Shown: piece after piece, positions 10,893 to 29,138 of the stretch
How the letters are laid out: the number at the start of each line of letters is the position of its first letter
How positions within the stretch are numbered: position 1 is the stretch's first letter
Assembly (NCBI RefSeq): GCF_005845365.1
Contig: NZ_CP040509.1
Coordinates: forward strand, 124,001 to 188,000
Source: Rhodoluna limnophila
GTDB taxonomy: Bacteria > Actinomycetota > Actinomycetes > Actinomycetales > Microbacteriaceae
Direction of reading: 5' to 3'
Length of the DNA stretch: 64,000 nt
Program-made: the position numbers and the translations under genes
The notes under the pieces: generated by a model
Told to the model about the DNA's origin: nothing
Seen by the model: only the letters and a program-made list of their open reading frames with translations
Database searches by the model: none

Positions 10893-11084
10893 GTTTTTTT
10901 TCACCGGCTGTCCAGACAAAATTTGGCCAGAAACCCAGCAAACAAGTGGGTAGCCGAACCTTTGCCACCGCTTTTTGAACAATTTTTTTGGCACGGCCAT
11001 ATCCGGTCTAGTGCTCAGCCAAGCGTGCCTTTACGCTTATATCTAGCAGCCCTCGCCGGCCCCGAGAGCAGAGTCAGGTTCACA

Positions 11085-16973: not shown

Positions 16974-16991
16974 CCGCTAATCTTTTAGCGG
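16974..16991. terminator. Hairpin between convergent genes
   Basis: CCGCTAA-TCTT-TTAGCGG forms a perfect 7-bp stem and contains the stop codon of the minus-strand gene. It lacks a clear T-run, so bidirectional termination is likely but unproven. Confidence 0.5.
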
Positions 16992-18212
16992 TTCGCGCCC
17001 TGCCTGAAGCTCCCACGGAACCTCGGTAACCGTTGCCGGGTCAATCAGCCCTGACCTGTCGGCGGCAACCGCAGTAACAATACGCTCGGCGGCCTCACCC
17101 GGGTATGGCATAGCTGCAGCCCGCAACGCCTCAATCTGCGTCGTGCGCGATGGCACTGCAACCAGATACTCGGCCAACTGATCCAGACTGTCAACCTTCA
17201 CTGCAGCCGCAGCAGCCAGCTCACCCAAATCACTAAACATCCAATGCTCAGGGTTCTCCATAAACAGCGCAGGCTTGCCCATGGCCAGAGGCCACTCGGC
17301 CAAATAAGAAATTCCGTCGGTCAACAGGGCATCTGCCTGGGCAAAAATCATCGCCGATGAACTCTCAGAATCAATCGATGTGTTTGGCAAATCCCGCCAA
17401 CGCGCCAGCCAGTCATCAAGTGCCTCACGGGTCATAACCTCGCGGTCAACCAGCGTGCCAAATAAGAACGGGTGTGGTCGCAAAATTACTCGAACAGCTG
17501 GGTTGGCAGCAGCCCAATCCAACATGCCCCAGCACACCTGAGCAAACACCCCAAAGTTCAGCCAGTGTGGTGAATAACTGTGGTGTGGCGCCCAAACCAA
17601 AGTGGTCAGTGCGCGCACAGCCAACTGCCCAGATTCGGCAATCTCTTCAACCTCTTCAATCAGGGCATCCAGCTTGGTAGAGCCAACAAAGTGCACGTGA
17701 TCATTGCCGCGCGGCAACTTGCCATAGGCACCTTTCAAAAACTTGTCTTGCACTACAACCAAAGACGCCAGCTGATGCATGCGCTGGGTGTAGAGGTGCG
17801 CGCCAATGGCCTCAAACCCAGATTCTGGGTGCACGCCATCAACCGGCTCGGCCACCAGCGGCAGCGAGTAGTAGGGCACATAAACAATGCGGCCAATGGC
17901 GGCCAGCTTGTCGGGCCGGTACTGCGGCGGGTAGTTTCTTTGCCACGGATAATTCACAAAAATGTAGTCTGGCTCGAGCGCGGCTAAGTCTGCATTCACC
18001 AGGTGTTTGATTCCGTGTGAGTCAAAGAATGCCGCCACATCGGCCACCCCGCCATAGCCCTCATCTCCGGTGAGCTTGCGGTCAATCGCAACCACGGTTA
18101 CGTCAAACCGCGGGTCTCCGCTCATGATGCGGTGGGTTTCGGCCAGGGCGTCCCAAGCCTCAAAGTAAAACGTCAAGAACGTGACCTTGATCTGTCTTAC
18201 CGTCTGGTTCAT
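16977..18212 (-). CDS. Second TagB/TagF-like glycerophosphotransferase family protein
   Basis: Predicted GT-B fold transferase (411 aa) related to CDP-glycerol glycerophosphotransferases but divergent. Recognisable features are VWAPHHSYSP in the centre, VILRPHPFLFG, and a nucleotide-binding segment ADALLTDGISYLAEWPL standing where TDYSS is found in the gene at 6928. The Ser-Ser of that box is replaced by Gly-Ile-Ser, so donor specificity may differ. It is a single gene, convergent with the giant surface protein and separated from it by only 18 bases. It may decorate the wall polymer or a surface glycan; the substrate is unknown. Confidence 0.72.
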   Translation of the reverse strand: MNQTVRQIKVTFLTFYFEAWDALAETHRIMSGDPRFDVTVVAIDRKLTGDEGYGGVADVAAFFDSHGIKHLVNADLAALEPDYIFVNYPWQRNYPPQYRPDKLAAIGRIVYVPYYSLPLVAEPVDGVHPESGFEAIGAHLYTQRMHQLASLVVVQDKFLKGAYGKLPRGNDHVHFVGSTKLDALIEEVEEIAESGQLAVRALTTLVWAPHHSYSPHWLNFGVFAQVCWGMLDWAAANPAVRVILRPHPFLFGTLVDREVMTREALDDWLARWRDLPNTSIDSESSSAMIFAQADALLTDGISYLAEWPLAMGKPALFMENPEHWMFSDLGELAAAAAVKVDSLDQLAEYLVAVPSRTTQIEALRAAAMPYPGEAAERIVTAVAADRSGLIDPATVTEVPWELQAGREPLKD

Positions 18213-18261
18213 AGCCCAAGTTTAGGCAACAGGGCCGACAACTCAAACCCCCAGTTAAAGA

Positions 18262-18302
18262 AAAAACCCCGAGGCTACGAATTCATTAGTCCCGAGGTTT
18301 TT
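18262..18302. terminator. Imperfect bidirectional terminator
   Basis: AAAAACC pairs with GGTTTTT, continuing inward through two mismatches to CTA/TAG around a 9-base loop. Both strands end in T-rich tails. It insulates the 18212 gene from transcription arriving from the right. Confidence 0.55.
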
Positions 18303-18451
18303 CTAATTTGAGAAAATCGCAATTTGCTCAAACTTTGTAGCTATTGCAGCAATCTCACGAGGCTTGGTTTCAAGTGGGGTGCTGCAACTTCTACATTACC
18401 AATACACGCCGACAGCCCTCGGTTATTACGGTGGGCTTCGAAATAATCGGT

Positions 18452-18489
18452 AAAGAAAAAATGCGCCCGATCATTCCCAAGGCGGGCGC
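18452..18489 (-). terminator. Rho-independent terminator of the 52-codon gene
   Basis: Read on the minus strand, GCGCCCG pairs with CGGGCGC around a 13-base loop and is followed by ATTTTTTCTTTA. The stop codon of the small gene lies inside this hairpin, strong support that a transcript ends here. Confidence 0.88.
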
Positions 18490-18629
18490 CTATTCATCAG
18501 CTCAACCAGACCGTCGTTGGGCTTTGCCGCTGCCGACACGGCACCCTCGAGGGCCTCAAAAACTTCTTCCGGTACAGCAAACTCCAGCACATCGTTCTCA
18601 CTTGTGAACGCAATAGATTCTTCGCTCAT
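18471..18629 (-). CDS. Small acidic protein of unknown function, divergent from the sigma factor gene
   Basis: A 52-codon frame beginning MSEESIAFTSENDVLEFA and ending MNRRPPWE. It is supported by a strong GGGAGGAAGC ribosome-binding site directly before the ATG, and by a canonical terminator overlapping its stop. It is rich in Glu and hydrophobic residues, has no cysteine, and has no signal peptide or membrane helix. I do not recognise the family. It shares a 124-base divergent control region with the membrane-bound sigma factor gene. It could be a regulator or partner of that factor or an unrelated peptide; the sequence alone does not decide. Confidence 0.72.
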   Translation of the reverse strand: MSEESIAFTSENDVLEFAVPEEVFEALEGAVSAAAKPNDGLVELMNRRPPWE

Positions 18630-18753
18630 GCTTCCTCCCAATGTGAATAGTAATCAAACCCCAACCAGACCGTAATAAAACCGGACTAATGGCGTATAAC
18701 TCGATACTGACCTAAACTGTCAGTGATCGATTACACCTTGGGGAGGGGCACCG
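18630..18753. promoter_or_regulatory. Divergent control region of small gene and sigma factor
   Basis: Contains ACCGTAATA followed by AAA and CCGGACT (about 18670-18687), nearly the same block as upstream of the surface gene at 20487 (20349-20366). TATAAC at 18695-18700 could be a -10. An inverted repeat ACTGAC-N7-GTCAGT spans 18706-18724. GGGGAGGGG before 18754 is the ribosome-binding site. Confidence 0.55.
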
Positions 18754-20253
18754 ATGTCAGACGTCACACCGCTGCGCCCAGAAGACGCCAACTCCAGCGA
18801 ACAACTCGCCAACCTCCCAGAAGACCCATTCGAGTCAATGCTCGATGAAGAGTCTGACGAGGACTTTGGCTACGTAGTCACCCGTGAGCGCGCTGCCGGC
18901 CCAGACGGCCGCCCAGTCAAGTTGGCCGAGTGGTCAGCCCAAGACTTCTCAAGCATTTACACCCGCTTTCGCCCACACCTAGAGCGCCACGCTCGCCGCT
19001 TTCTAAACAACCAAAGCCAGGTTGACGAGGTCGTTCAAGACGCATTCCTTTACCTAATGGTCAGCCTGCCAGAGCTCGACTCAGAGATTGGTGTTCTGCG
19101 CTTCCTTAAATGGAAGACCCGCCTACTGTGCCTAGACGTCATTCGCGCCAGCGGCAAAACCTACCTTGCCAGCATTGACGACGTAGCCGAGCCTGCCAGC
19201 AACGACCCAGAGATCTCTAGCTACCTAGAGCAGCAAGATGACGCTGCGGTTCTGCGCCTTGCCCTCAGCAAGCTCAACCCTCGCCACCGCGAGGTTCTAT
19301 TGGCCAGCATCTATGAAGAAAAATCCACCGATGTCATTGCCGCCCAGGTGGGTCTGTCCGAGAACGCCACTCGCCAGCTAATCTTCCGTGCCCGCGCAGC
19401 CTTCAAAAAGGCGCTGTTGGGTGACGACATTGACACCAACGGCATGTCAGCCGCAGCCATTCTCTCGGTTGCTGCCCGCAAGGCGGCTTATGACGCCAAA
19501 AAGGTTGGCGCCCAGGCCATGGTCTTTGCACTGTTCCTAATGCTGGCGGTTGGCGCATTCATTCAGGTTGGCGGCCGCGGCACCCAAGAGGCAAACCTTG
19601 CTGAGGTTGAGGCCCCATCGGCCACCAGCCCAGATTCCACCAACTCGGGTGCCACCCAATCAGCAACCCCAAACACTTCAAACTCTGCAACACCGATAGA
19701 CCCAACCGCCGAGCCAACCACTCAGCCGGTGCCGGTTATCAACACTGTGATCAGCCTGCCAAGCACCACGGCAACGCCAAGCACAGAGGCAAGCCCAAGT
19801 GCTAGCCCTAGCGAGAGCCCTTTCACTCAGGCAGCCGAGGCAGCCATCTTTGACTCAAGCAAGTCAGAGGTTGTGTTCTTGCTTGCCAACAGCCGGCCAG
19901 ACATTCAGGGCGTCAACTTCTCGGGCGACTACATTGCCTCGGCTAGCCAGGGCATCTACTCAGAGTTCACCTTTGACTACAGCGGCAACAAGCAGTTCTC
20001 AAACGTAGACGTCTACTTCTTGGTAGACGCATTGCCTTACCTTGCTAAGACCACAGAAATTGAGGTCATCTCAGGCGTAGACGCAGCTGGCCAGCAGCAC
20101 ATCGTGTTCTATGGCGCAGTCGACAAAATCACCGATCGCAATGGTGCAGTGGTCAATGACAGCACTCTGGCCAAGGGCACCATCCGCATCGAGCTAGTGG
20201 TCAACAAAGAGCGCACCGCGGTGGTCTCAACTCACCTTGACCTTCTAGGTTAA
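18754..20253 (+). CDS. ECF-type sigma factor with transmembrane helix and extracytoplasmic domain
   Basis: Predicted membrane-tethered RNA polymerase sigma factor (499 aa). After an acidic N-terminus, region 2 spans about 65-135 (YTRFRPHLERHARRFL, VDEVVQDAFLYLM) and region 4 about 165-220 (LNPRHREVLLASIYEE, AAQVGLSENATRQLIFRARAAFKK). A hydrophobic helix, AQAMVFALFLMLAVGAFI, lies at about 254-271, followed by a Ser/Thr/Pro linker (about 285-370) and an external domain of about 130 residues with no family I recognise. This merges sigma and sensor parts that are usually on separate sigma and anti-sigma proteins. It lies just upstream of two S-layer-like genes and is a natural candidate for their control. 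Confidence 0.86.
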   Translation: MSDVTPLRPEDANSSEQLANLPEDPFESMLDEESDEDFGYVVTRERAAGPDGRPVKLAEWSAQDFSSIYTRFRPHLERHARRFLNNQSQVDEVVQDAFLYLMVSLPELDSEIGVLRFLKWKTRLLCLDVIRASGKTYLASIDDVAEPASNDPEISSYLEQQDDAAVLRLALSKLNPRHREVLLASIYEEKSTDVIAAQVGLSENATRQLIFRARAAFKKALLGDDIDTNGMSAAAILSVAARKAAYDAKKVGAQAMVFALFLMLAVGAFIQVGGRGTQEANLAEVEAPSATSPDSTNSGATQSATPNTSNSATPIDPTAEPTTQPVPVINTVISLPSTTATPSTEASPSASPSESPFTQAAEAAIFDSSKSEVVFLLANSRPDIQGVNFSGDYIASASQGIYSEFTFDYSGNKQFSNVDVYFLVDALPYLAKTTEIEVISGVDAAGQQHIVFYGAVDKITDRNGAVVNDSTLAKGTIRIELVVNKERTAVVSTHLDLLG

Positions 20254-20337
20254 CGAAACCGAATCGCAAAGCCTTCGAGTCAGGCAAAATCACGGTTTCC
20301 TGCTTCAAATTCGCGCGCCCGAAAACATCCTCAAATT

Positions 20338-20366
20338 ATCCGGACAATACCGTAATAGTCCGGACT
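20338..20366. promoter_or_regulatory. Tandem TCCGGAC palindromes upstream of surface protein gene 1
   Basis: ATCCGGAC (20338-20345) and GTCCGGAC (20358-20365) have centres exactly 20 bp apart, two helical turns, as expected for a dimeric regulator binding one DNA face. The same core occurs upstream of both LuxR genes. Confidence 0.6.
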
Positions 20367-20383
20367 TGTCTGCGCTAACTAAT

Positions 20384-20486
20384 GTGAGGTCCTTTTCACC
20401 ATTTTGCTTGGTTGCTTGGTGTGGCGGGTATCTCGGCTGATCTCAATGGGGGGTCGGTTTTATAACCAAGATTAGAAAGAGACAAA
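20384..20486 (+). promoter_or_regulatory. Conserved 5' leader of surface protein gene 1
   Basis: The roughly 100-base leader shares GTGAGGTC (20384) and TGCTTGGTTG (20405), 21 bases apart, with the leader of the paralogue at 24010, where the spacing is also 21. Both leaders end in AACCAAGA...AAAGAGACA just before the ATG. Confidence 0.6.
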
Positions 20487-22955
20487 ATGTCTAAGAACTT
20501 GACTCGTAAGGGTCTAGCTTTTGGTGCACTAGTTGCTCTCGGTTCATCAGTAATTGCGGGCGCACCTGCACATGCTGTTGACAACGTAGCGCTGGCTCCA
20601 AACTCTGGAACCTCTTACCTAACAACTCTTGCCGGTGCATTCGTGCTGAAGGCCGAATTCGGCGGCGCTGTGCCAACCAGCCAGCTGGGCGACCTTCGCT
20701 TCAAGATCACCCAGACCGGTGCAAAAGTAATCTCGGCTGCAATCGGTTCTGACCTTGCAAACAGTGGAGCGTCGTACACCTACCTGACTGCTGACCTTGA
20801 TGCTACTAACGCATCTTTCGTAACTGCAAAGTTGCCTGCTCGCAGCGCAACTCCTGTTGACGGCGAGAAGATCGCGTCTTACACCGAGGCTGGCGCAGTC
20901 AAGCTAACCGCTTCAGGTACCGCAACTGCATCTGCAGATGTTACCGCTTGGTTGGACATCGACAACGACGGTGTTATCGACAGCACTGAGTACTCATCAG
21001 TCACACGCACGGTTACCTTCCACAAGGCAACCGACCTATCTGCAGTGACAACTTTGACTGCACCGGTTGCAGGCCAGGCTTCACTTGCTGCTTCGACCGT
21101 CATCACCCCAGAGCTGAACTCAGCTATGTTGGCAACTAACGCAGTAACCGTTGACTTCGCAGGCGGCAACGCTGCTGACGGCAACGCTACCTTTGCTTCA
21201 GGTAAGTGGAGCGCAACTGGTGCGACCACTGTTGCAGGTGCAACCACATACACTGCCCAGGCAAAGGTTGACGGAACCGCAATTGGTAACGTTGCATCTC
21301 AGTCTGTTGCTGCAGTAACCGTTGCAACCATCACTGCAGCTGTTACCGACAACGGAGACACCCAGGATGTAACCCCTGCTGCTGGCACCACCAACAAGGC
21401 TTCAAAGGTTCGCGCTGGCGTAAAGAACGCTGAGGTTGTGCTTACTCTCAAGAAGGTCGATGGTACTGCTGTTGGTGCTGGCATCCCAGTCGTCGTGGGC
21501 GTTGACACCACCGTTGCAACCACTCCAGTAACCGCAGCAATCACTGTTGCAGGCACTGCTGTTTCAACCACTATTGGCGGAGACATCACTGTCAACTCTG
21601 TAACTGATGCAAACGGCCAGGTAAAACTTGCAGTTGTAAACCAGTTGGGTACCGCCGCAGACAAGCTAACCTTCACAGCATCGGCTGAGGGCATTTCACT
21701 TGACACCAACACCGGCGCTGCTGCTCAGGCATTCGAACTAGCATGGGCAAACCCTGCCTACACTGCAGTTTCGACTGCTGTTGGTTCAGCTGTTCGTTCA
21801 ATTGCTGAGGGTGGATCAACCACTTTCAACTATGACGTCAAGGACAACTTCGGAACCGCAATCGGCTCAGGCGCACGCCTTGAGTTTGTTGTTGCCGGAA
21901 CCGCATCTGCTACCTCATACGTGAACCTAGTTGGAGGCAAGGCTTCAATCACCGTAACCGACACCACTGCAAACGTTGCATCAGCAATCACCGTTGACGC
22001 CACGCTTCAGACCCAGGATGTTGCTACCAGCAACTGGACCAGCACTGCAGTCGCCGCTGCACAGCAGACTGTCAACGTGACTTCAACTGTTGCTGCTTTT
22101 GACACAGTTCCAGTTGCTTCATCGGTTGCTCTATCAACCGCTGCAACTCTAACTGCGTCTGTAAACAACCCAGGTGCAGCAGTTACCGTTGCTGCTAACG
22201 GCGTAACCTTCACCGTTGACGGTGTTGAGTACGCTAACTCAGTTACTTTGTTCTCTGCTGCAACCACCGGTGACATCTCAGTTTCAGCGAAGTCAAACAT
22301 CGCTGGTGCAAAGACTGTTACCTACACTGTTGGTTCAGAGTCAAAGACTGCGGTTCTAACCGTGGGCGCTGCTGCTGAAACCGCAGGTACCAACATTGAC
22401 CTATCAGCTGTTCCAGCAACTATCGTTCCTGGTTCAACCTTGGTCTTCACTGGTTACCTAAAGGATGTCTACGGCAACGCTGTTGACACCGACCAGGGTG
22501 CGGGTACAACCCCAACCTTCTCAGTTGCTTACGCAGGCCCTGGTTTCATTGTTGGCGGTACAACCCCAACTGCAACCGATGCTGACGGTAAGTTCACCTT
22601 CACCGTAATTCTTGGTGCAAACGATGCTGGTTCAGCAACCGTTACCGTCAAGTATGACGCTGATGGCGCAACCACCACAATTGCTGAGATCTCAAAGTCT
22701 GCCACCGTTAGCGTTGCAAAGGCTGTCACCGCAGCTACCGCAGCTGCTTCTGGTTCAACCGGCAAGATCTACGCATCAGCAACTAACGCTGCTGGCAAGA
22801 AGGTTGTTGTTAAGGTTTCTGGCAAGTTCGTTACCAGCTTCACCGGTACCGCTGCTAAGAAGTCTGTTGCGATTGCTGCTCTAAAGGGCAACCGCACCGT
22901 AACCATCTACGTTGGTGGAACTCTAGTTCTAACCAAGCTGGTTACAATCAAGTAG
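20487..22955 (+). CDS. S-layer-like secreted surface protein 1
   Basis: Predicted abundant exported protein (822 aa). Signal peptide: SKNLTRKGLAFGALVALG to a cleavage site after APAHA (about residue 30). The mature part is Ala/Thr/Val-rich beta sandwich-like sequence, without cysteine in the stretches I read. A possible calcium-binding loop DIDNDGVIDSTEY lies near residues 157-169. The last 70 residues (from AAASGSTGK to KLVTIK) form a conserved C-terminal domain shared with the paralogue at 24010. No LPXTG, SLH or membrane anchor is seen. Role as a surface layer is inferred from size, composition, leader conservation and strong codon bias. Confidence 0.8.
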   Translation: MSKNLTRKGLAFGALVALGSSVIAGAPAHAVDNVALAPNSGTSYLTTLAGAFVLKAEFGGAVPTSQLGDLRFKITQTGAKVISAAIGSDLANSGASYTYLTADLDATNASFVTAKLPARSATPVDGEKIASYTEAGAVKLTASGTATASADVTAWLDIDNDGVIDSTEYSSVTRTVTFHKATDLSAVTTLTAPVAGQASLAASTVITPELNSAMLATNAVTVDFAGGNAADGNATFASGKWSATGATTVAGATTYTAQAKVDGTAIGNVASQSVAAVTVATITAAVTDNGDTQDVTPAAGTTNKASKVRAGVKNAEVVLTLKKVDGTAVGAGIPVVVGVDTTVATTPVTAAITVAGTAVSTTIGGDITVNSVTDANGQVKLAVVNQLGTAADKLTFTASAEGISLDTNTGAAAQAFELAWANPAYTAVSTAVGSAVRSIAEGGSTTFNYDVKDNFGTAIGSGARLEFVVAGTASATSYVNLVGGKASITVTDTTANVASAITVDATLQTQDVATSNWTSTAVAAAQQTVNVTSTVAAFDTVPVASSVALSTAATLTASVNNPGAAVTVAANGVTFTVDGVEYANSVTLFSAATTGDISVSAKSNIAGAKTVTYTVGSESKTAVLTVGAAAETAGTNIDLSAVPATIVPGSTLVFTGYLKDVYGNAVDTDQGAGTTPTFSVAYAGPGFIVGGTTPTATDADGKFTFTVILGANDAGSATVTVKYDADGATTTIAEISKSATVSVAKAVTAATAAASGSTGKIYASATNAAGKKVVVKVSGKFVTSFTGTAAKKSVAIAALKGNRTVTIYVGGTLVLTKLVTIK

Positions 22956-22973
22956 CACTTCCCCTGTAACAAG

Positions 22974-23013
22974 AAACTTCCCGGTCCTGAAAAGGGCCGG
23001 GAAGTTTTCTTTT
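22974..23013. terminator. Terminator after surface protein gene 1, shared with convergent LuxR gene
   Basis: AAACTTCCCGG pairs with CCGGGAAGTTT around a loop and is followed by TCTTTT on the plus strand. The minus strand also has a T-containing tail, so it probably serves both convergent genes. Confidence 0.88.
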
Positions 23014-23040
23014 AAGTTGCGAGCTGACGCAGTTCTTCAA

Positions 23041-23751
23041 CTAAGCGGGGGGGGGGGGTCTTTTTATGAGGCCAAGCGCTCGGCCCTTTTTGGCCGCCTC
23101 AGTGCGGTTTGGAACACCCAGAGCGCGATAAATACGGACTGTCTCCTGACGTACCGTCGATTCCGAAACCAACAGCTTGTTTGCAATCTCAGCGTTCACA
23201 AGACCCTCGGCCATGAAGTCCAGAATTCTAATCTGGCGGCTGGTAAGGTCTTCTCCGCTTGCCTCGCGCAGGCCACCCTTGGTGGTTGCAATTGCCATGT
23301 TGGTTAGGCAATAGGTTCCTAGTTTGCCCAAAATCGGAATCAACTTTTCGTGCATCGGTAGATCTTTTACGGTGTCAACCAAGACCAAGCACAAACTGCC
23401 TAGCGGCACGCTGTCGCGCAGCAACGGAATTGCAATCACTGGTTGGTTGGCTGGCCCATGGCCATCAAATACAAAAGTCTTGGTTCTTACTGAAATAGCG
23501 ATTGGGGTTTCATCCCAAGCAGAGATCTCTGGTGCCTCGCTCGAGTAAACCATTCCATAGCCAGCCACTGGCAGTAGCTGAGAGCTGTTGTCCAACAGAT
23601 ACATGTGACAGCCCTGAACATTTGCGTTGCTTAGCTCTGAGTGCACAAGTGCCCGACAAAATTCAGATGCGTTGTCGCTCTTAAGCAATGTGTCAAGAAC
23701 TGACTCGATCGCCGCAAAGTCAATGCCCGGCGATTGCGCGGTAGTCATCAT
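23041..23751 (-). CDS. GAF-like/LuxR family transcriptional regulator 1
   Basis: Predicted DNA-binding regulator (236 aa). Residues about 10-155 resemble a GAF-type sensory domain; 169-229 form a LuxR/GerE helix-turn-helix (TSRQIRILDFMAEGLVNAEI, LLVSESTVRQETVRIYRALG). It has no receiver phosphorylation domain. The ATG at 23751 follows GGGGGAGG. The gene is divergent from surface gene 2 and convergent with surface gene 1. The C-terminus RPPPPA is encoded by an uninterrupted run of 12 C (23047-23058). One added or two lost C would replace it with a tail ending RLVEELRQLAT, a plausible helix, so the tract may be phase variable or contain a sequencing indel. Confidence 0.87.
   Translation of the reverse strand: MMTTAQSPGIDFAAIESVLDTLLKSDNASEFCRALVHSELSNANVQGCHMYLLDNSSQLLPVAGYGMVYSSEAPEISAWDETPIAISVRTKTFVFDGHGPANQPVIAIPLLRDSVPLGSLCLVLVDTVKDLPMHEKLIPILGKLGTYCLTNMAIATTKGGLREASGEDLTSRQIRILDFMAEGLVNAEIANKLLVSESTVRQETVRIYRALGVPNRTEAAKKGRALGLIKRPPPPA
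23047..23058. repeat. Poly-G/poly-C 12-mer at the 3' end of a LuxR gene
   Basis: Twelve consecutive G on the plus strand, the longest homopolymer I saw in the window. It lies inside the last codons of the minus-strand regulator and is prone to slippage. Confidence 0.95.
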
Positions 23752-23822
23752 TCATACCTCCCCCAAGGTCAAAACCCGAATGTAGTACTAACCGTACATG
23801 CCCCTCCTGACAGACAAGTCCT

Positions 23823-23834
23823 ATGTCCGGACAT
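23823..23834. promoter_or_regulatory. Perfect palindrome between LuxR 1 and surface gene 2
   Basis: ATGTCCGGACAT is a perfect 12-bp palindrome placed 72 bases upstream of the LuxR start and about 175 bases upstream of the surface protein gene. It contains the GTCCGGAC core shared with other promoters in this region. Confidence 0.62.
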
Positions 23835-23905
23835 CAAATAGTCAAGTCTGTTTAGACCTGATGTCTTCACCGTGACGCACGCGAATCCCTCTAGTTACCT
23901 AGAAC

Positions 23906-24009
23906 GTGAGGTCTTTTATCTCCGCCTGCTTGGTTGGCCGAGGTGAGATTTCACAATCCGGGGGTCATAAGGATTTTCGGGGAATAAACCAAGAAAGAAA
24001 GAGACATAC
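23906..24009 (+). promoter_or_regulatory. Conserved 5' leader of surface protein gene 2
   Basis: GTGAGGTC (23906) and TGCTTGGTTG (23927) keep the same 21-base spacing and nearly the same distance to the start codon as in the leader at 20384. This points to a conserved transcription start or regulatory leader. Confidence 0.6.
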
Positions 24010-27000
24010 ATGTCTAAGAACCTAACCCGCAAGGGATTGGCTTTTGGTGCACTTGTTGCTCTCGGCTCGACTTTGATTGCAGGCGCTCCGGCATCTGCAT
24101 TGGGTCAGGCAGACAACACATTTGTATCGCTAATCCCATCTGCTGGCTCTGAGTACACCGTGCTATCTGGCAACGGTAAAACTTTTGATCTAACAGCCAA
24201 CGAATCTTCTACCGTTGCCGGTGGAAACGTTTCATTCCTAGTTGAGGACACAGACAGCAAGCTTGAACCTGTAGCTGCAAACACCACCAACTATGGCTTT
24301 ACAGTTGACTCTTTTGCGGCTGGTACCGATGAAGTCGTTACCATCAACGAAGCAGGCCACACATTGAAGAATGGTGACGTAGTAATCATCACCGGACTGA
24401 CCACTGTTTTGGACTCGACCAACGCCGAAGCTGCTGCTGCATCGATTAACAACGCCGCTCCGTACGTCATCTCTGACGTAGTTGCGAACGTGTCATTCAA
24501 GGTGACTGCTAAGTCTGCAGTTGCCGCTGCTATCGTCGCCGCTGACCCAGCGGGCGATGATGCAGTCCTTTTCGCAAAGCCAGACACAGGAACCATTGAG
24601 CTAGTGCGTTCAGCTCGTGCAACCAACGGATCATTCGTTGTGAACACAGGCGTTAACTCAGCATCAACCAACGAGACTCTTCGTCTTGTTCAGGGTGATG
24701 AAACCACCACGCGCACCGCAACTGTTACCGCTTGGGTGGACTCAAACGGTGACCGTGAAATCAACGGCACTGAGTATGCTTCACCATCACGTGTTGTTAC
24801 CTTCAAAAAGAGCACCGAAGTTACTGCAACTGCAGCAATCGATGCTCCAACCGTTGGTGAAACTTCAATCGTGTCTCACATCACAACCACTCCAGCATTG
24901 AATGGTTCACAGATGAGCAACGGTGACGTTGACGGTTACGTAACCTTCCAGGGCAGCGCGACTGACTTCGATCCAGCAAACTCTGCTTCTGTTTTCAACT
25001 CGACTACTCGAGTTTGGGACGTAACTTACAGCCGCTCAATTGGTATTGACGCAATTGACTGGACCGATTCTTCTGACTCAAGCGTTGCTTCAACTGATTC
25101 AGCTGCTGCCCACGGCTTCGCCGTTGGGGAGACTGTAATTATTGCAAGCGGCGACAATGAATTGAACGATGGAACATTTGTTATCACCAGCAAGACCGAT
25201 GACACATTCACCTACACTGATGCGACTGGTGCAGACACTACAAGTGACACCGGTACAGCAACAATTTCGATTGTCGCTGGCTCATACAGCGTTACCCCTA
25301 AGATCGGTTCAGACAAGATTGGTTCAGCTGCCTCAGTTGTAGTTGGTGCGGTCAAGGCTGCTACTGGTGCAACCACCGTCGTTGAAGGTGCAAACGTAAA
25401 CAGCGCCGACAACGATGGTTCGGCTGATGTAACTGTCCGCGCAAAGACTCTTGCTGTTTCAGGTAAGTGGGCTTTCAAGGATGCTGACAAGGCTCTTGTC
25501 TCAGCAGGCCGCCCAGTCAAGATCACTGTTACTACCCTTACCGGCGTAACTGGTGTGAAGGTAAACGGCACCTCTGTAGTATCAGGTGACGTTGTTTCAG
25601 CAACTACTGATGCAAATGGTGAAGTTGTTGCAAACGTAACTGCTACTGCTGCGGTTGATGGCAACAAGCTTAAGCTCACCGCTGTGGCTGAGGGCGTCTC
25701 AGGAACTTCTGAGTACATTGAGTGGACCTGGTCAAACGGTACAAACTACCTATACGACTTGAACCACGCAGATTCTCTTTACCGCGCGATTTCAAAGGGT
25801 GGTTCATACACCTTTGATTTCGCTCTAGTTGACACCTGGGCACAGAACCTAACCACCGGTGACTACCGACTCAAGGTAGCCGTTGGCGGAAACACTGTTT
25901 CTGAGACTTACCCAGCACTGTCAAACGGCCGCGCATCTGTAACCGTAACTGATGCACAAATCGGAACCAGCAACGTAACCGTTGATGTCACTGTTCAGAA
26001 GAAGAACTCTTCTGGTACATGGGCCGCCGGCACCGTTGACAGCATCGTTCTACCTTCAGTAGTGAACTACGTTCTTGTTCCTACTTCAGGAACCGGTGCA
26101 GTAACCGCAACCTCAACTGACGTTACTGGTGACTTCACCACTGACGCTTTTGTAACTGGTGACACCCGAATCACCCAGGCTGCAGTTTCAGGCGACGGCT
26201 CAACCGGTACTACTGGTATCGAGATCACCGGTTCAGTAACCGACTCTCTAACTGGCGTTACTCGTCCGGGTGCAATTGTCACCATTTCAGGTGACAGCAG
26301 CTTGCTGTTCGTCTCAGGCGCTAAGGCATCAACTGGTTCTATCTCAATTGCTGCTTCATCTACTGGCACCTACAGCGTGCACGTGCGTTCAAACAAGGCA
26401 CAGAAAGACACAGTTGTGACTGTTGCTTCTCTGGGTGGCACCAAGACCATCAAGATCACTTTTGATGTTGCTCTTGAAGACACCGCGTCGAACTTGACCA
26501 TCACAGCACCTGCGCAGGTTGTTCCAGGCCGTACAGTCACCGTGAAGGTTGCACTAACCGACAAGTTCGGTAACGCAGTCATCACCGGCACCGGCAAGCG
26601 CACAGGTTCAACTACTCCATCAGTGAAGGTAACTTATGACGGTCCAGGTTACGTAACCTCGACCATCGCTACCACCACTGACGAAAATGGCTTGATTTCA
26701 TTCGTTGTCCTTATGGGTGCGGCTGATTCAGGCGTCGGCACGGTTACCGCAAAGTACGACTCAAACGGTTCTGTTGCGGATGTAACAGGCACCACTGTTG
26801 TACTGAGCAAGACTGCAACCATCACTGTTGGTGCAGCAGCTCCTGCAGCAGTCGCAGCAGCAGCTTCTGGTTCAACTGGCAAGTTCTTTGCTTCAGTTTC
26901 CAACGCTGCTGGTAAGAAGGTTGTTGTTAAGGTTTCTGGCAAGTTCGTTACCAGCTTCACCGGTACCGCTGCTAAGAAGTCTGTTGCGATTGCTGCTCTA

Positions 27001-27072
27001 AAGGGCAACCGCACCGTAACCATCTACGTTGGTGGAACTCTAGTTCTAACCAAGTTGGTTACAATCAAGTAA
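24010..27072 (+). CDS. S-layer-like secreted surface protein 2
   Basis: Paralogue (1,020 aa) of the protein at 20487. It shares the signal peptide (MSKNLTRKGLAFGALVALGS, cleavage after APASA) and the C-terminal 70 residues, while the middle diverges. A possible calcium-binding loop DSNGDREINGTEY is near residue 242. It is about 200 residues longer, partly because of two inserted modules of the form xHxLKNGDVVII and AHGFAVGETVII...FTYTDATG (near residues 110-200 and 355-415), like modules in other large surface and phage proteins. The 3' end is nearly identical in DNA to the paralogue, suggesting recent conversion or strong selection. Confidence 0.8.
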   Translation: MSKNLTRKGLAFGALVALGSTLIAGAPASALGQADNTFVSLIPSAGSEYTVLSGNGKTFDLTANESSTVAGGNVSFLVEDTDSKLEPVAANTTNYGFTVDSFAAGTDEVVTINEAGHTLKNGDVVIITGLTTVLDSTNAEAAAASINNAAPYVISDVVANVSFKVTAKSAVAAAIVAADPAGDDAVLFAKPDTGTIELVRSARATNGSFVVNTGVNSASTNETLRLVQGDETTTRTATVTAWVDSNGDREINGTEYASPSRVVTFKKSTEVTATAAIDAPTVGETSIVSHITTTPALNGSQMSNGDVDGYVTFQGSATDFDPANSASVFNSTTRVWDVTYSRSIGIDAIDWTDSSDSSVASTDSAAAHGFAVGETVIIASGDNELNDGTFVITSKTDDTFTYTDATGADTTSDTGTATISIVAGSYSVTPKIGSDKIGSAASVVVGAVKAATGATTVVEGANVNSADNDGSADVTVRAKTLAVSGKWAFKDADKALVSAGRPVKITVTTLTGVTGVKVNGTSVVSGDVVSATTDANGEVVANVTATAAVDGNKLKLTAVAEGVSGTSEYIEWTWSNGTNYLYDLNHADSLYRAISKGGSYTFDFALVDTWAQNLTTGDYRLKVAVGGNTVSETYPALSNGRASVTVTDAQIGTSNVTVDVTVQKKNSSGTWAAGTVDSIVLPSVVNYVLVPTSGTGAVTATSTDVTGDFTTDAFVTGDTRITQAAVSGDGSTGTTGIEITGSVTDSLTGVTRPGAIVTISGDSSLLFVSGAKASTGSISIAASSTGTYSVHVRSNKAQKDTVVTVASLGGTKTIKITFDVALEDTASNLTITAPAQVVPGRTVTVKVALTDKFGNAVITGTGKRTGSTTPSVKVTYDGPGYVTSTIATTTDENGLISFVVLMGAADSGVGTVTAKYDSNGSVADVTGTTVVLSKTATITVGAAAPAAVAAAASGSTGKFFASVSNAAGKKVVVKVSGKFVTSFTGTAAKKSVAIAALKGNRTVTIYVGGTLVLTKLVTIK

Positions 27073-27089
27073 TTACCTAGTTACACAGG

Positions 27090-27123
27090 AATTCCCGGCT
27101 CTTCGGAGCCGGGAATTTCTTTT
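27090..27123 (+). terminator. Terminator after surface protein gene 2
   Basis: A perfect 12-bp stem AATTCCCGGCTC with a TTCG tetraloop is followed by TTTCTTTT. Confidence 0.94.
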
Positions 27124-27144
27124 AACCAGGGTTATCGTTTGACT

Positions 27145-27564
27145 ATGGCAAAGTACTCATACACCCAGCACCCACACGCATCAGAGCGGCAGCATTTGCC
27201 AACCCACAGCCACATCCGTGGACTAAACAACCGGATAGGTTTGTGGATCACCGAGCGGGTGGGCACAATGTGGGCGGCGTATGCCTTTGCGCTGCTGGCA
27301 CTGATTAGCCTGCCGGCAGCCTTGGCAACCGGTGATGTGCGGGTGATTGTTGACTGGGTGGCGCAAACGTTTTTGCAGCTGGTGCTGGTATCGGTGATTA
27401 TTGTTGGCCAGAACCAAATGAACCGTCAGGCAGAGATACGCGCTGAGGCCACCTATAAAGACGCCACAGCCCTGCTGCACGAGGTTCAGCAGTTGCAACA
27501 GCACCTAGCCCACCAAGACGCCCAAATAGAGCGCCTGCTGAAGGCTGTGGGGGCTAAGGGTTAG
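27145..27564 (+). CDS. Small DUF1003-like membrane protein
   Basis: Predicted inner membrane protein (139 aa). A His-rich N-terminus precedes two hydrophobic helices (WAAYAFALLALISLPAAL and FLQLVLVSVIIVG). After GQNQMNRQAEIRAEATYKDA comes a heptad-like, coiled-coil C-terminus. The helix arrangement and the QN...R.E..Y.....E segment recall DUF1003 proteins; no function is defined. I prefer the ATG at 27145 over a TTG two codons earlier. Little ribosome-binding sequence is present, so it may be leaderless. It ends 4 bases into the convergent LuxR 2 gene. Confidence 0.7.
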   Translation: MAKYSYTQHPHASERQHLPTHSHIRGLNNRIGLWITERVGTMWAAYAFALLALISLPAALATGDVRVIVDWVAQTFLQLVLVSVIIVGQNQMNRQAEIRAEATYKDATALLHEVQQLQQHLAHQDAQIERLLKAVGAKG

Positions 27565-28256
27565 CTAGCCTGCTGAATCTTTGAGATAAGCCCTAGCGCG
27601 CGGCCCTGGGCCACGGCCTCTTGGCGGTTATCGGTGTTTAGGCAGCGGTAGATCTTTACCGACTCTTGGCGCACGGTTGACTCGCTCAGCAATAGGCGGC
27701 GAGCAATCTCGGCATTGGTTAGGCCCTCGGCCATAAACTCCAAAACCTTTACCTGGCGGGTGCTCATTTCTTCAACGCTTGGCTTGCCGCTAAAGGTTTG
27801 AACTCGAGCCTCTTTGCTGGCACGCTTTTCGTCTAGGTGATAGCCGGCAACCTTGCTAATTAGCGGCACAATCTCAGGGCTAATGTATTGCTCGGTGGTG
27901 CCTGGCTCCATTACCAAAACTGCCACTGCCTCAGGGATTCCGTTGTTGATCATCGGAATCGAGATTGATGCAGCGGTGGTCTCGGTCTCGGCAGCAAACT
28001 CTAAGTTGCGGGTCACCACGGCGTTCATGGCGTGCTCAAGGTAGTTGCTTGGTAGCTCGGCACCAAAGTAGGCCTCAGGCACCAGCTGGCCGGTTACATC
28101 AAGGCTGAGAATGTGGCAACCGCGGAACACATTGTTGGTGCCCGGTGCCAGAACCGCACGGCGGCAGACATCGGTTAGTGAGTCACTCTGCAACACAACG
28201 TCAAGCGCCACGCTCAGGTGGTCGAGGTCGTTGTTGAGGTTCTGGTTGTCGTTCAT
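27561..28256 (-). CDS. GAF-like/LuxR family transcriptional regulator 2
   Basis: Paralogue (231 aa) of the regulator at 23041. The N-terminal about 150 residues are a GAF-like sensory domain sharing the GCH core. Residues 164-224 are the LuxR helix-turn-helix (STRQVKVLEFMAEGLTNAEI, LLLSESTVRQESVKIYRCL). It ends ISKIQQAS rather than in a poly-Pro tract. It lacks a receiver domain, so its signal is probably a ligand or protein contact. Its promoter region carries a GTCCGGAC palindrome, suggesting auto- or cross-regulation with regulator 1. Confidence 0.87.
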   Translation of the reverse strand: MNDNQNLNNDLDHLSVALDVVLQSDSLTDVCRRAVLAPGTNNVFRGCHILSLDVTGQLVPEAYFGAELPSNYLEHAMNAVVTRNLEFAAETETTAASISIPMINNGIPEAVAVLVMEPGTTEQYISPEIVPLISKVAGYHLDEKRASKEARVQTFSGKPSVEEMSTRQVKVLEFMAEGLTNAEIARRLLLSESTVRQESVKIYRCLNTDNRQEAVAQGRALGLISKIQQAS

Positions 28257-28364
28257 GCGGGGGACATTCTCTCTAATGTTGATGCAGTCGTGTGTCCCCC
28301 AACAACAACATTAGCCCAGACATGCCATTTACTGTTACGCCCAAAGCGCACAATACTCTGCGTA

Positions 28365-28372
28365 GTCCGGAC
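28365..28372. promoter_or_regulatory. GTCCGGAC site between LuxR 2 and nucS
   Basis: The 8-bp palindrome lies 109 bases upstream of the LuxR 2 start and 70 bases upstream of nucS. It matches the core seen at 20358 and 23825. Confidence 0.5.
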
Positions 28373-28442
28373 ATATCTCGGGTATTGGCCGTTTCTCAGG
28401 TTGGGGCGCTAGGTTGTCGGCGGGTTCTGCGAGAATAGTCCC

Positions 28443-29138
28443 ATGCGCCTAATCATTGCCGAATGCTCTGTTGACTACGCAGGCCGGCTCAGCGCTCACC
28501 TGCCGCGGGCCAAGCGCCTGTTGGTCATGAAGGCCGATGGCTCTGTCTTGGTCCACTCTGACTCGGGTTCTTATAAGCCGCTTAACTGGATGAACCCGCC
28601 TTGCGTTGTCAGTTTTGTTGACCCAACCGATGACCAGGTTTCCATCGGTGTACAAGCCGTGTGGCGGGTGCAGCAGGTGAAGACTGATGACGTTTTGATG
28701 ATCAGCATTTTTGAGGTGCTGAGTGAGTTTGAGCACGAGCTGGGCGAGGACCCTGGGTTGATTAAAGACGGCGTTGAAAAGCACCTGCAAGAGTTGCTGG
28801 CCGATCAGCTGCATCTGGTTGAAGAGGGTGCCAGCCTGATTCGTCGCGAATACTTTACGGCCATTGGCCCGGTAGACATTTTGCTGCGCGATGCAGCCGG
28901 TGGGGTAGTGGCCATTGAGCTCAAGCGCCGCGGTGACATCGATGGCGTTGAGCAGCTGACCCGTTACCTTGAGCTGTTGAATCGCGACCCTTTATTGGCC
29001 CCGGTTCGTGGCATTTTTGCTGCCCAAGAAATCAAACCTCAGGCCCGCAAGTTGGCCGAAGACCGCGGTATCGAGTGCTTGGTGCTCGACTACGACTCGA
29101 TGCGCGGCATCGAAGACTCTGTGCCGAGGTTGTTTTAG
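28443..29138 (+). CDS. nucS: Mismatch-specific endonuclease NucS (EndoMS)
   Basis: Cytoplasmic nuclease (231 aa) that cleaves both strands at mismatches, the non-canonical mismatch repair system of actinobacteria and archaea that lack MutS/MutL. The N-terminal DNA-binding domain ([21 protein letters not shown]) is followed by the RecB-like nuclease core: GPVDILLRD and [20 protein letters not shown] give the Asp, Glu and Lys catalytic residues. The length is normal for the family. It shares one base with the start of the metal transporter gene (TAGTG), an unusual functional pairing probably due to compaction. Confidence 0.93.

Follow-up and report, generated by a model that had tools for sequence, protein, structure and literature searches.

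In Streptomyces, the extracytoplasmic function (ECF) sigma factor sigma-BldN reads promoters of the form CGTAACN16CGTTGA (PMC2375139), and its targets include the chaplins, the rodlins and bldM (PMC4125116). Other ECF sigma factors, of the groups ECF48, ECF52 and ECF53, are fused to a membrane anti-sigma part, and their release by proteolysis is supposed (PMC8999054, PMC5826349). Among LuxR-type proteins, EsaR acts as a repressor at some promoters and as an activator at others; its own promoter has a repressing box at the -10 (PMC4169570). The literature consulted offered nothing usable on Rhodoluna S-layers, on sigma or LuxR control of S-layers, on ECF factors of Microbacteriaceae or on pseudoknots in S-layer leaders. 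Here we describe a locus of the freshwater-type bacterium Rhodoluna limnophila, lying in a stretch of 64,000 nucleotides (contig NZ_CP040509.1, positions 124,001 to 188,000; hereafter the window), in which a short palindrome, GTCCGGAC, recurs beside genes for a predicted membrane-tethered ECF-type sigma factor, two secreted surface proteins (SLP1 and SLP2) and two LuxR-type regulators (LuxR1 and LuxR2). The palindrome is real, rare and conserved and marks a small conserved control circuit, which is most likely a regulon of a sigma factor and a GAF-LuxR protein for alternative surface proteins, built on a BldN-like plan.

A rare and conserved palindrome

The first-pass annotation of this DNA had cited five copies of the palindrome core. 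The exact 8-mer occurs in the window at 20358, at 23825 (in the 12-mer that starts at 23823) and at 28365 only; the cited copies at 20338 and 18679 are inexact. The sites and genes are as follows, with promoter positions numbered so that the T of TAnnnT is -12.

20338..20345, plus strand: distal palindrome ATCCGGAC (7 of 8 letters), centre at -46.5 of SLP1
20358..20365, plus strand: proximal palindrome GTCCGGAC, inside the SLP1 promoter spacer, centre at -26.5
23823..23834: perfect 12-mer palindrome ATGTCCGGACAT between LuxR1 and SLP2, centre at -79.5 of the SLP2 promoter
23846..23857: GTCTGTTTAGAC, a degenerate inverted site and the second in this gap, 21 bp downstream of the 12-mer (read directly)
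28365..28372, minus strand: palindrome before LuxR2, also upstream of the opposite-strand nucS, kept in the relative G092
18679-18686: degenerate palindrome AACCGGAC (6 of 8 letters) in the spacer of the sigma gene's promoter
18754..20253, plus strand: ECF-type sigma factor with a predicted C-terminal membrane helix and external beta domain (Pfam, NCBIfam, AlphaFold2 (AF2) model, fold search)
20487..22955, plus strand: SLP1, secreted surface protein (open reading frame (ORF), signal-like N-terminus)
23041..23751, minus strand: LuxR1, GAF-LuxR regulator, divergent from SLP2 (Pfam GerE; GAF fold by model)
24010..27072, plus strand: SLP2, secreted surface protein (ORF, signal-like N-terminus)
27561..28256, minus strand: LuxR2, paralogue of LuxR1 with a LuxR helix-turn-helix (HTH) (Pfam GerE)
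28443-29138: nucS (Pfam)

By itself, the number of exact copies in the window is weak evidence, since three compare with a shuffle mean of 0.83 and at least three were found in 7 of 100 shuffles. Strong evidence comes from clustering and from conservation across species. The whole genome to which the window belongs (G000, 1,398,704 bp; conservation was judged in relatives coded Gnnn) holds six exact sites as against 30 for a control with the letters reversed, and three of the six fall in one 8-kb part of the window, all intergenic. The other three lie between ORFs (C1:291396), in a large ORF (C1:613013) and in an ORF (C1:1083820); the earlier statement that all hits fall between members of a single gene group therefore stands for the exact hits of the window and fails genome-wide. 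In four single-contig genomes, 13 of 19 exact sites (G000, 6; G092, 5; G010, 6; G103, 2) are intergenic, as called from ORFs rather than annotation and with two short antisense ORFs set aside. The tandem pattern TCCGGACN{12,14}GTCC has its sole occurrence in G000 at SLP1. When one mismatch is allowed, the window holds 12 matches with 22.8 expected, and because this is below expectation the weak sites (10910 and similar) carry no weight. The variants GTCCAGAC at 10910 and ATCCGGTC at 11001, the latter with two mismatches, are thus background, and the giant surface protein that they precede loses its proposed standing as a target.

The shuffles that reach three matches and the genome-wide depletion of the 8-mer would fit accidental clustering of a short palindrome, or depletion of a restriction site in the rest of the genome. 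Either is scarcely credible: positions relative to the promoters are fixed across two genera (see below), and the tandem pattern is confined to SLP1. Chance is rejected by these two observations together with the rarity in the genome, and depletion of a restriction site is rejected as the whole story, as it leaves the fixed positions unexplained.

Close public relatives are metagenome-assembled Microbacteriaceae genomes. A search for the sigma factor in 398 genomes of the family (E up to 1e-40) found it in 16, from three genera. In all, 27 sigma-bearing genomes were used, 18 within the genus (of 67) and 9 outside it, and 21 were counted for LuxR1 and the palindrome; left out of this count were G121, G095 and G408 (sigma gene not followed by a surface-protein gene), G220 (no clear SLP), and G149 and G081 (contig ends). 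The gene order sigma > SLP1 < LuxR1 > SLP2 is retained in relatives, and G013, G269 and G350, of genus g13, have the same four-gene order. LuxR1 has orthologues in G092 (67%) and G010 (62%) and clear ones also in G155, G152 and G103. In G092, G010, G155 and G152 the palindrome recurs before SLP1 and in the LuxR1-SLP2 gap. The two properties that could have spoken against the earlier proposal, a high frequency in the genome and a lack of conservation upstream of orthologues, were thus both found to be otherwise. LuxR2 was seen in two loci only, those of G000 and G092, and the palindrome precedes it in both. At the sigma gene, sightings of the palindrome are confined to G000 and to the genome most closely related to it, G092 (there as ATCCGGAC), with the promoter kept in relatives.

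A second SLP gene past LuxR1 is present in 9 of 9 readable loci with LuxR1 and, within the locus stretch examined, in 0 of 11 loci without it (G107 is not readable here, its contig ending in LuxR1). In G350 (L332), LuxR1, SLP2 and two genes that resemble those of sugar-nucleotide enzymes form a block; G381 (L331) is like G350 and lacks all four at that place. In G100 and G101, sisters of the LuxR1-bearing G107, the position of LuxR1 is taken by a gene identified from its sequence as REC-LuxR.

Two further occurrences lie away from these genes. In G000, G092 and G010, an intergenic GTCCGGAC (L004:1501, L106:3155, L110:3179) precedes the same gene, whose product has FEDLEAQF near the N-terminus and which is a possible further target. 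In G103, a GTTCGGAT/GTCCGGAC pair 20 bp apart (L112:3072-3099) stands about 75 bp ahead of a gene whose secreted product has 864 aa; a gene with a LuxR HTH is close by.

Predicted promoters, probable operator positions and regulators

The regulon proposed in the first-pass annotation holds as a regulon-like set (membrane sigma factor, SLP1, SLP2, LuxR1 and LuxR2); it had overlooked a second shared upstream element, namely CCGTAATA, 17 bases and then usually nTAnnn, which has the layout of a promoter.

18407..18431, minus strand: sigma-type promoter CCGTAATA-N15-CG before a candidate small RNA (sRNA), read-through to a 411-aa gene being possible
18670..18694, plus strand: the sigma gene's own sigma-type promoter, CCGTAATA-N15-CG
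20350..20380, plus strand: SLP1 promoter CCGTAATA-N17-CTAACT, from comparison of upstream regions
23870..23900, plus strand: SLP2 promoter CCGTGACG-N17-TTACCT, spacer without palindrome

Exact CCGTAATA-N15-CG occurs three times in all of G000, each time at this locus (minus 18431, sigma 18670, SLP1 20350). G092 has the same three promoters, with the minus-strand copy lying 5.8 kb ahead of that of the sigma gene; three are present in G010, at the locus, four in G103, three of them at the locus, and one each in G152, G155 and G107, at SLP1; G013 has no exact match. The longer form CCGTAATA-N15-CGnTA is found in 16 of the 67 genus genomes, namely 15 of 18 with the sigma factor, all carrying a copy at SLP1, and 1 of 49 without it; the reversed pattern gives 5 matches in the 67 genomes. 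Three sigma-bearing genomes lack it, namely G121, where no SLP follows the sigma gene, and G145 and G149, which have the variants CCGTAAC and TCGTAAC; G154 has the promoter with the sigma factor absent. Most SLP2 promoters read CCGTGAyG at the same spacing (CCGTAAGT in G010, AGTAACAG in G013). The predicted promoter goes with the sigma factor and carries much of the conservation, the palindrome being an extra site, which at SLP1 falls within the promoter's spacer. Because of this co-occurrence, we infer that this sigma factor reads these promoters. Separately, in G122 (L337) and G154 (L338), SAM-IV riboswitch aptamers (Rfam) are found at a distance of about 0.6 kb from a sigma-type promoter, CCGTAATA-N15-CGnTA, that precedes a similar anonymous stretch and a small protein.

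At SLP1 the palindrome lies inside the -35/-10 spacer and directly abuts the -35 box (CCGTAATA-GTCCGGAC), with its centre at -26.5 in 9 of 9 genus promoters having it and at -27.5 in G013. A twin site at -46.5 or -47.5 is present in G000, G092, G010, G155 and G152 (7 of 8 letters) and in G107 and G101 (6 of 8). At SLP2 the centre is at -79.5 in G000, G092, G010, G155 and G152 and at -80.5 in G013, the palindrome ends 37 bp before the -35 box, and GTCC-related sites with 6 of 8 letters stand at -58.5 in four of these relatives; G269 and G350 have GTCCAGAC in the LuxR1-SLP2 gap. The sites of a pair are 20-21 bp apart, and the SLP1 and SLP2 pairs are offset by about 32 bp, that is three helical turns. 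Two qualifications apply to these rows. In G269, G350 and G381 the promoter window was placed from the palindrome itself, making them less independent than the others, and the -35 (CGTAAT) and -10 (CGTTA) are then found at the usual N16 spacing. The secreted protein counted as SLP1 in G107, G100 and G101 is shorter, at 310-324 aa; it lacks a BLAST match to SLP1 and was assigned by position, promoter and leader.

A palindrome with at least 7 of 8 letters occupies the SLP1 spacer in 10 of 10 loci with LuxR1 and in 3 of 11 without (Fisher p 0.001, ancestry ignored). Spacer positions 1-8 are 86-100% conserved in seven genus members with LuxR1, as compared with 57% for positions 9-11, 13 and 15, and 44-78% conserved in nine genus members lacking LuxR1. 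These patterns make it likely that the palindrome is an operator of LuxR1 and of its paralogue LuxR2, placed on promoters of the membrane-tethered ECF sigma factor.

The contact between palindrome and -35 box, and the retention of the palindrome in G100, G101 and G381 with no LuxR1 alongside, might instead indicate a promoter part read by the sigma factor itself. We consider this very improbable: eight promoters of the same type at loci without LuxR1 keep the -35 and -10 at the same spacing and lack the palindrome, the SLP2 palindrome ends well upstream of the -35 box, and a palindrome precedes LuxR2, where the genome-wide search finds no CCGTAATA-N15-CG. It is also unlikely, if less so, that another regulator binds the site and LuxR1 is a passenger. 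Such a regulator could be the REC-LuxR protein encoded behind SLP1 in G100 and G101, both of which retain the site, and G000, G092 and G010 share a further intergenic copy elsewhere; against this, every one of the LuxR1-bearing loci has the site, and a copy precedes both LuxR1 and LuxR2, as autoregulation would predict.

Several observations weigh against LuxR1 as the protein that reads the palindrome. G100, G101 and G381 retain it without an adjacent LuxR1 (for G381, and likewise G313, as judged in the locus stretch), and recent loss of LuxR1 there is a weak answer, 'an excuse' and no proof. Absence of LuxR1 means absence from beside SLP1, and distant LuxR1-like genes lie elsewhere in G145 (E 3.6e-35) and G118 (1.5e-16). 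In G220, an exact GTCCGGAC (L334:6708) stands 112 bp before a gene that follows the sigma gene and encodes a secreted protein of 619 aa, and at this site neither LuxR1 nor a CCGTAATA promoter was seen. G103 has LuxR1, yet shows no SLP2 site with at least 6 of 8 letters and has the variant GACCGGAC at SLP1. Upstream of 11 more distant LuxR1-like genes, no site exceeds 6 of 8. On a sigma tree of 17 rows, LuxR1 changes only three times and the palindrome twice; because of these few changes no ancestry-corrected test of co-occurrence is possible, and the co-occurrence has no power once ancestry is considered. Finally, the sign of control discussed below is deduced from the position of the sites alone.

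The sigma factor matches Pfam sigma70 r2 (1.9e-9) and r4_2 (3.3e-10) and, above cut-off, NCBIfam TIGR02937; it has the ECF layout of sigma-2 and sigma-4 domains only, and a fold search with its model matched ECF sigma factors, including SigL, SigE, SigW and BldN structures. The AF2 model (overall predicted local distance difference test (pLDDT) 62.8; about 85 across most of the last 100 residues) predicts a long helix at 233-270 containing a hydrophobic stretch, then a low-confidence linker and a beta domain; the membrane helix was judged from the sequence by eye and from the model rather than by a topology program. LuxR1 (model pLDDT 86) matches GAF folds including 3ci6, 3trc and 1f5m, and Pfam gives no GAF match, so the GAF assignment comes from the model; with the GerE match it supports a one-component regulator with a GAF fold and a LuxR HTH, as the first-pass annotation had named it. 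LuxR2 is 35% identical to LuxR1, with a near-identical recognition helix. A run of twelve G at 23047-23058, near the luxR1 3' end (PPPP in the tail), is a possible slippage tract. SLP1 and SLP2 have signal-like N-termini beginning MSKNLTRKGLAFGA and a common C-terminus; neither has a Pfam or NCBIfam domain above cut-off, S-layer domains included, and the label 'S-layer-like' given to them earlier is a provisional one.

In the mechanism that we propose, a cell-surface signal would release the sigma factor from its C-terminal membrane anchor, and the freed sigma factor would transcribe SLP1 and SLP2 as well as its own gene. Dimers of LuxR1, which would sense some signal through the GAF domain, would bind site pairs 20-21 bp apart: the SLP1 pair, bracketing the -35 box, would block that promoter, and the SLP2 pair, sitting upstream, would help activation. 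LuxR-type proteins bound upstream usually activate. LuxR1 thus probably represses SLP1 and activates SLP2, to judge from where its putative sites lie. The palindromes before LuxR1 and LuxR2 fit autoregulation, and the outcome would be a choice of SLP1 or SLP2 together with autoregulation of both regulators. As a full reciprocal switch operated by LuxR1, this is a tentative proposal, less likely than not. That LuxR1 simply activates both SLP genes, or simply represses both, with no switch, is a serious possibility, held at somewhat under an even chance: the two genes share promoter type and leader, and activation could work through the distal SLP1 site near -47, whereas the strictly kept site at -26.5 between -35 and -10 and the fact that the second SLP goes with LuxR1 while SLP1 stays speak against it.

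Leader RNA and a candidate small RNA

In the proposed mechanism, both mRNAs would also carry a pseudoknot-type leader beside the ribosome-binding region.

20387..20486, plus strand: structured SLP1 mRNA leader (P1 loop CUUGGUU 20407-20413; hairpin P2; AACCAAG 20464-20470)
23907..24009, plus strand: structured SLP2 mRNA leader (CUUGGUU 23929-23935; AACCAAG 23987-23993)

In 24 SLP genes the ATG follows the first base of the -35 box at a distance of 131-142 bases. CUUGGUU forms the loop of hairpin P1, and AACCAAG follows P2 and precedes a purine-rich region resembling a ribosome-binding site. CUUGGU and AACCAAG are invariant in 24 of 24 leaders, the next U being G once (G103 SLP2), and a 7-bp loop-to-strand pseudoknot between CUUGGUU and AACCAAG is possible. 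The leader set comprised 30 leaders, 28 of them in relatives, and 24 representatives were used in the pairing test. The arms of P1 differ in sequence with pairing kept, the mean energy of the real arms beating all 20,000 re-pairings; the P2 arms gave the same result with three fixed splits. Fold z-scores were -1.7 to -7.4 in 20 leaders, and 4 others each beat 200 of 200 shuffles (shuffling preserved single-base, not dinucleotide, content). RNAalifold on a plain MAFFT alignment of the leaders returned the invariant stem only and no compensatory change. Rfam showed no family match at E up to 1 in window positions 18000-28500, which cover the leaders and the sRNA. In G000 the leader anchor pattern is found at SLP1, at SLP2 and at one place outside the locus; by itself it is not specific, as 41 of 67 genus genomes match, many away from SLPs, and a reversed control matches too. 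In summary, the SLP1 and SLP2 mRNAs share a predicted leader that is covarying, pseudoknot-like and without an Rfam match.

18263..18395, minus strand: candidate sRNA ending in an intrinsic terminator, the same element in 7 genomes

The terminator runs 18302-18262 (arms 18262-18277/18287-18302). A simple pattern scan of the loci of 28 genomes found the candidate sRNA in seven (G000, G092, G010, G103, G121, G118, G152; copies in relatives at L093:914-1047, L094:16562-16756, L095:16774-16857, L243:4067-4199, L244:6904-6976 and L097:17390-17476), and a sigma-type -35 box precedes it in six, G152 lacking it. Apart from the terminator, AAACCAAGCC is its sole long invariant stretch; five of seven predicted folds place it, largely unpaired, in a hairpin loop (clearest in G118), and it is partly paired in G010 and G152. 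AACCAAGC, at 18369-18362, is the exact complement of the leader-loop GCUUGGUU. G107, G100 and G101 have ACUUGGUU in place of GCUUGGUU, and the pattern scan of their loci found no such sRNA. Duplex energies between sRNA and leader were not better than those of shuffled sRNAs (26 to 227 of 300 as good in 11 pairs; single-base, not dinucleotide, content preserved), so the case for pairing consists solely of invariance and exact complementarity, and the function of the candidate sRNA is a guess. A switch of three layers under one membrane-tethered sigma factor, with operator-based promoter choice, the new pseudoknot leader and a sigma-driven sRNA whose loop AAACCAAGC would kiss the leader loop GCUUGGUU in competition with AACCAAG, is a doubtful extension of the proposal.

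Beyond the sRNA, the 411-aa gene (16977-18212, minus strand) was rejected as a clear sigma target, a terminator lying between gene and promoter. Its product has a weak match to TIGR04396 (surface carbohydrate biosynthesis; 15.8 bits, cut-off 125), possibly pointing to a role in surface glycosylation, and the gene is found near the sigma gene in at least 7 of 19 loci.

Taken together, the anonymous surface-protein genes of small-genome Microbacteriaceae can now be viewed as a concrete, testable circuit, with a putative operator for a GAF-LuxR sensor, a predicted leader RNA outside Rfam and a candidate class of promoters that a membrane-fused sigma factor would read. Phages, grazers and neighbours meet surface proteins first, and a mechanism for exchanging them would bear on coat variation in minimal cells; the leader RNA and its candidate sRNA partner could be a new class of regulatory RNA.

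Comparison with known systems

The leaders resemble leader RNAs of Rfam in that a structured leader lies by the ribosome-binding region, with a possible loop-to-downstream pairing, a riboswitch-like plan; they differ in that no Rfam family matches them in the part of the window searched. EsaR is likewise a LuxR protein with a dual sign of control, as proposed for LuxR1, but its ligand is an acyl-homoserine lactone and LuxR1 has a predicted GAF domain instead.

Like ECF48, ECF52 and ECF53 (SCO4117), the sigma factor described here belongs to Actinobacteria and combines ECF domains with a predicted C-terminal membrane helix and external part. The motif reported for SCO4117, CSGYN-17bps-SRHA, differs from the promoter found here. 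As to ECF52, the helix is predicted, and no zinc finger or carbohydrate-binding domain was found with Pfam or among the 25 of 55 NCBIfam matches listed, which are sigma models only.

A close parallel is sigma-BldN/BldM. The sigma factor is not a BldN equivalog (TIGR02952, 32.6 bits against a cut-off of 206.45) and would be anchored in the membrane by its own C-terminal part (no search for a separate anti-sigma factor was made); its putative LuxR partner carries a GAF rather than a receiver domain, and the palindrome is GTCCGGAC here and TCACcCgnncGgGTGA for BldM. The predicted promoters have the same layout as that of BldN without full identity of sequence, CGTAAT-N16-CGnTA being present at SLP1 in 15 of the 18 sigma-bearing genus genomes; the SLP2 promoters of G155 and G152 read CGTGAT-N16-CGTTGA. 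In both systems, as far as the plan can be read from the DNA, an ECF sigma factor would drive surface-protein genes together with a LuxR-type partner that binds a palindrome, as described for BldM (PMC2375139, PMC4125116).

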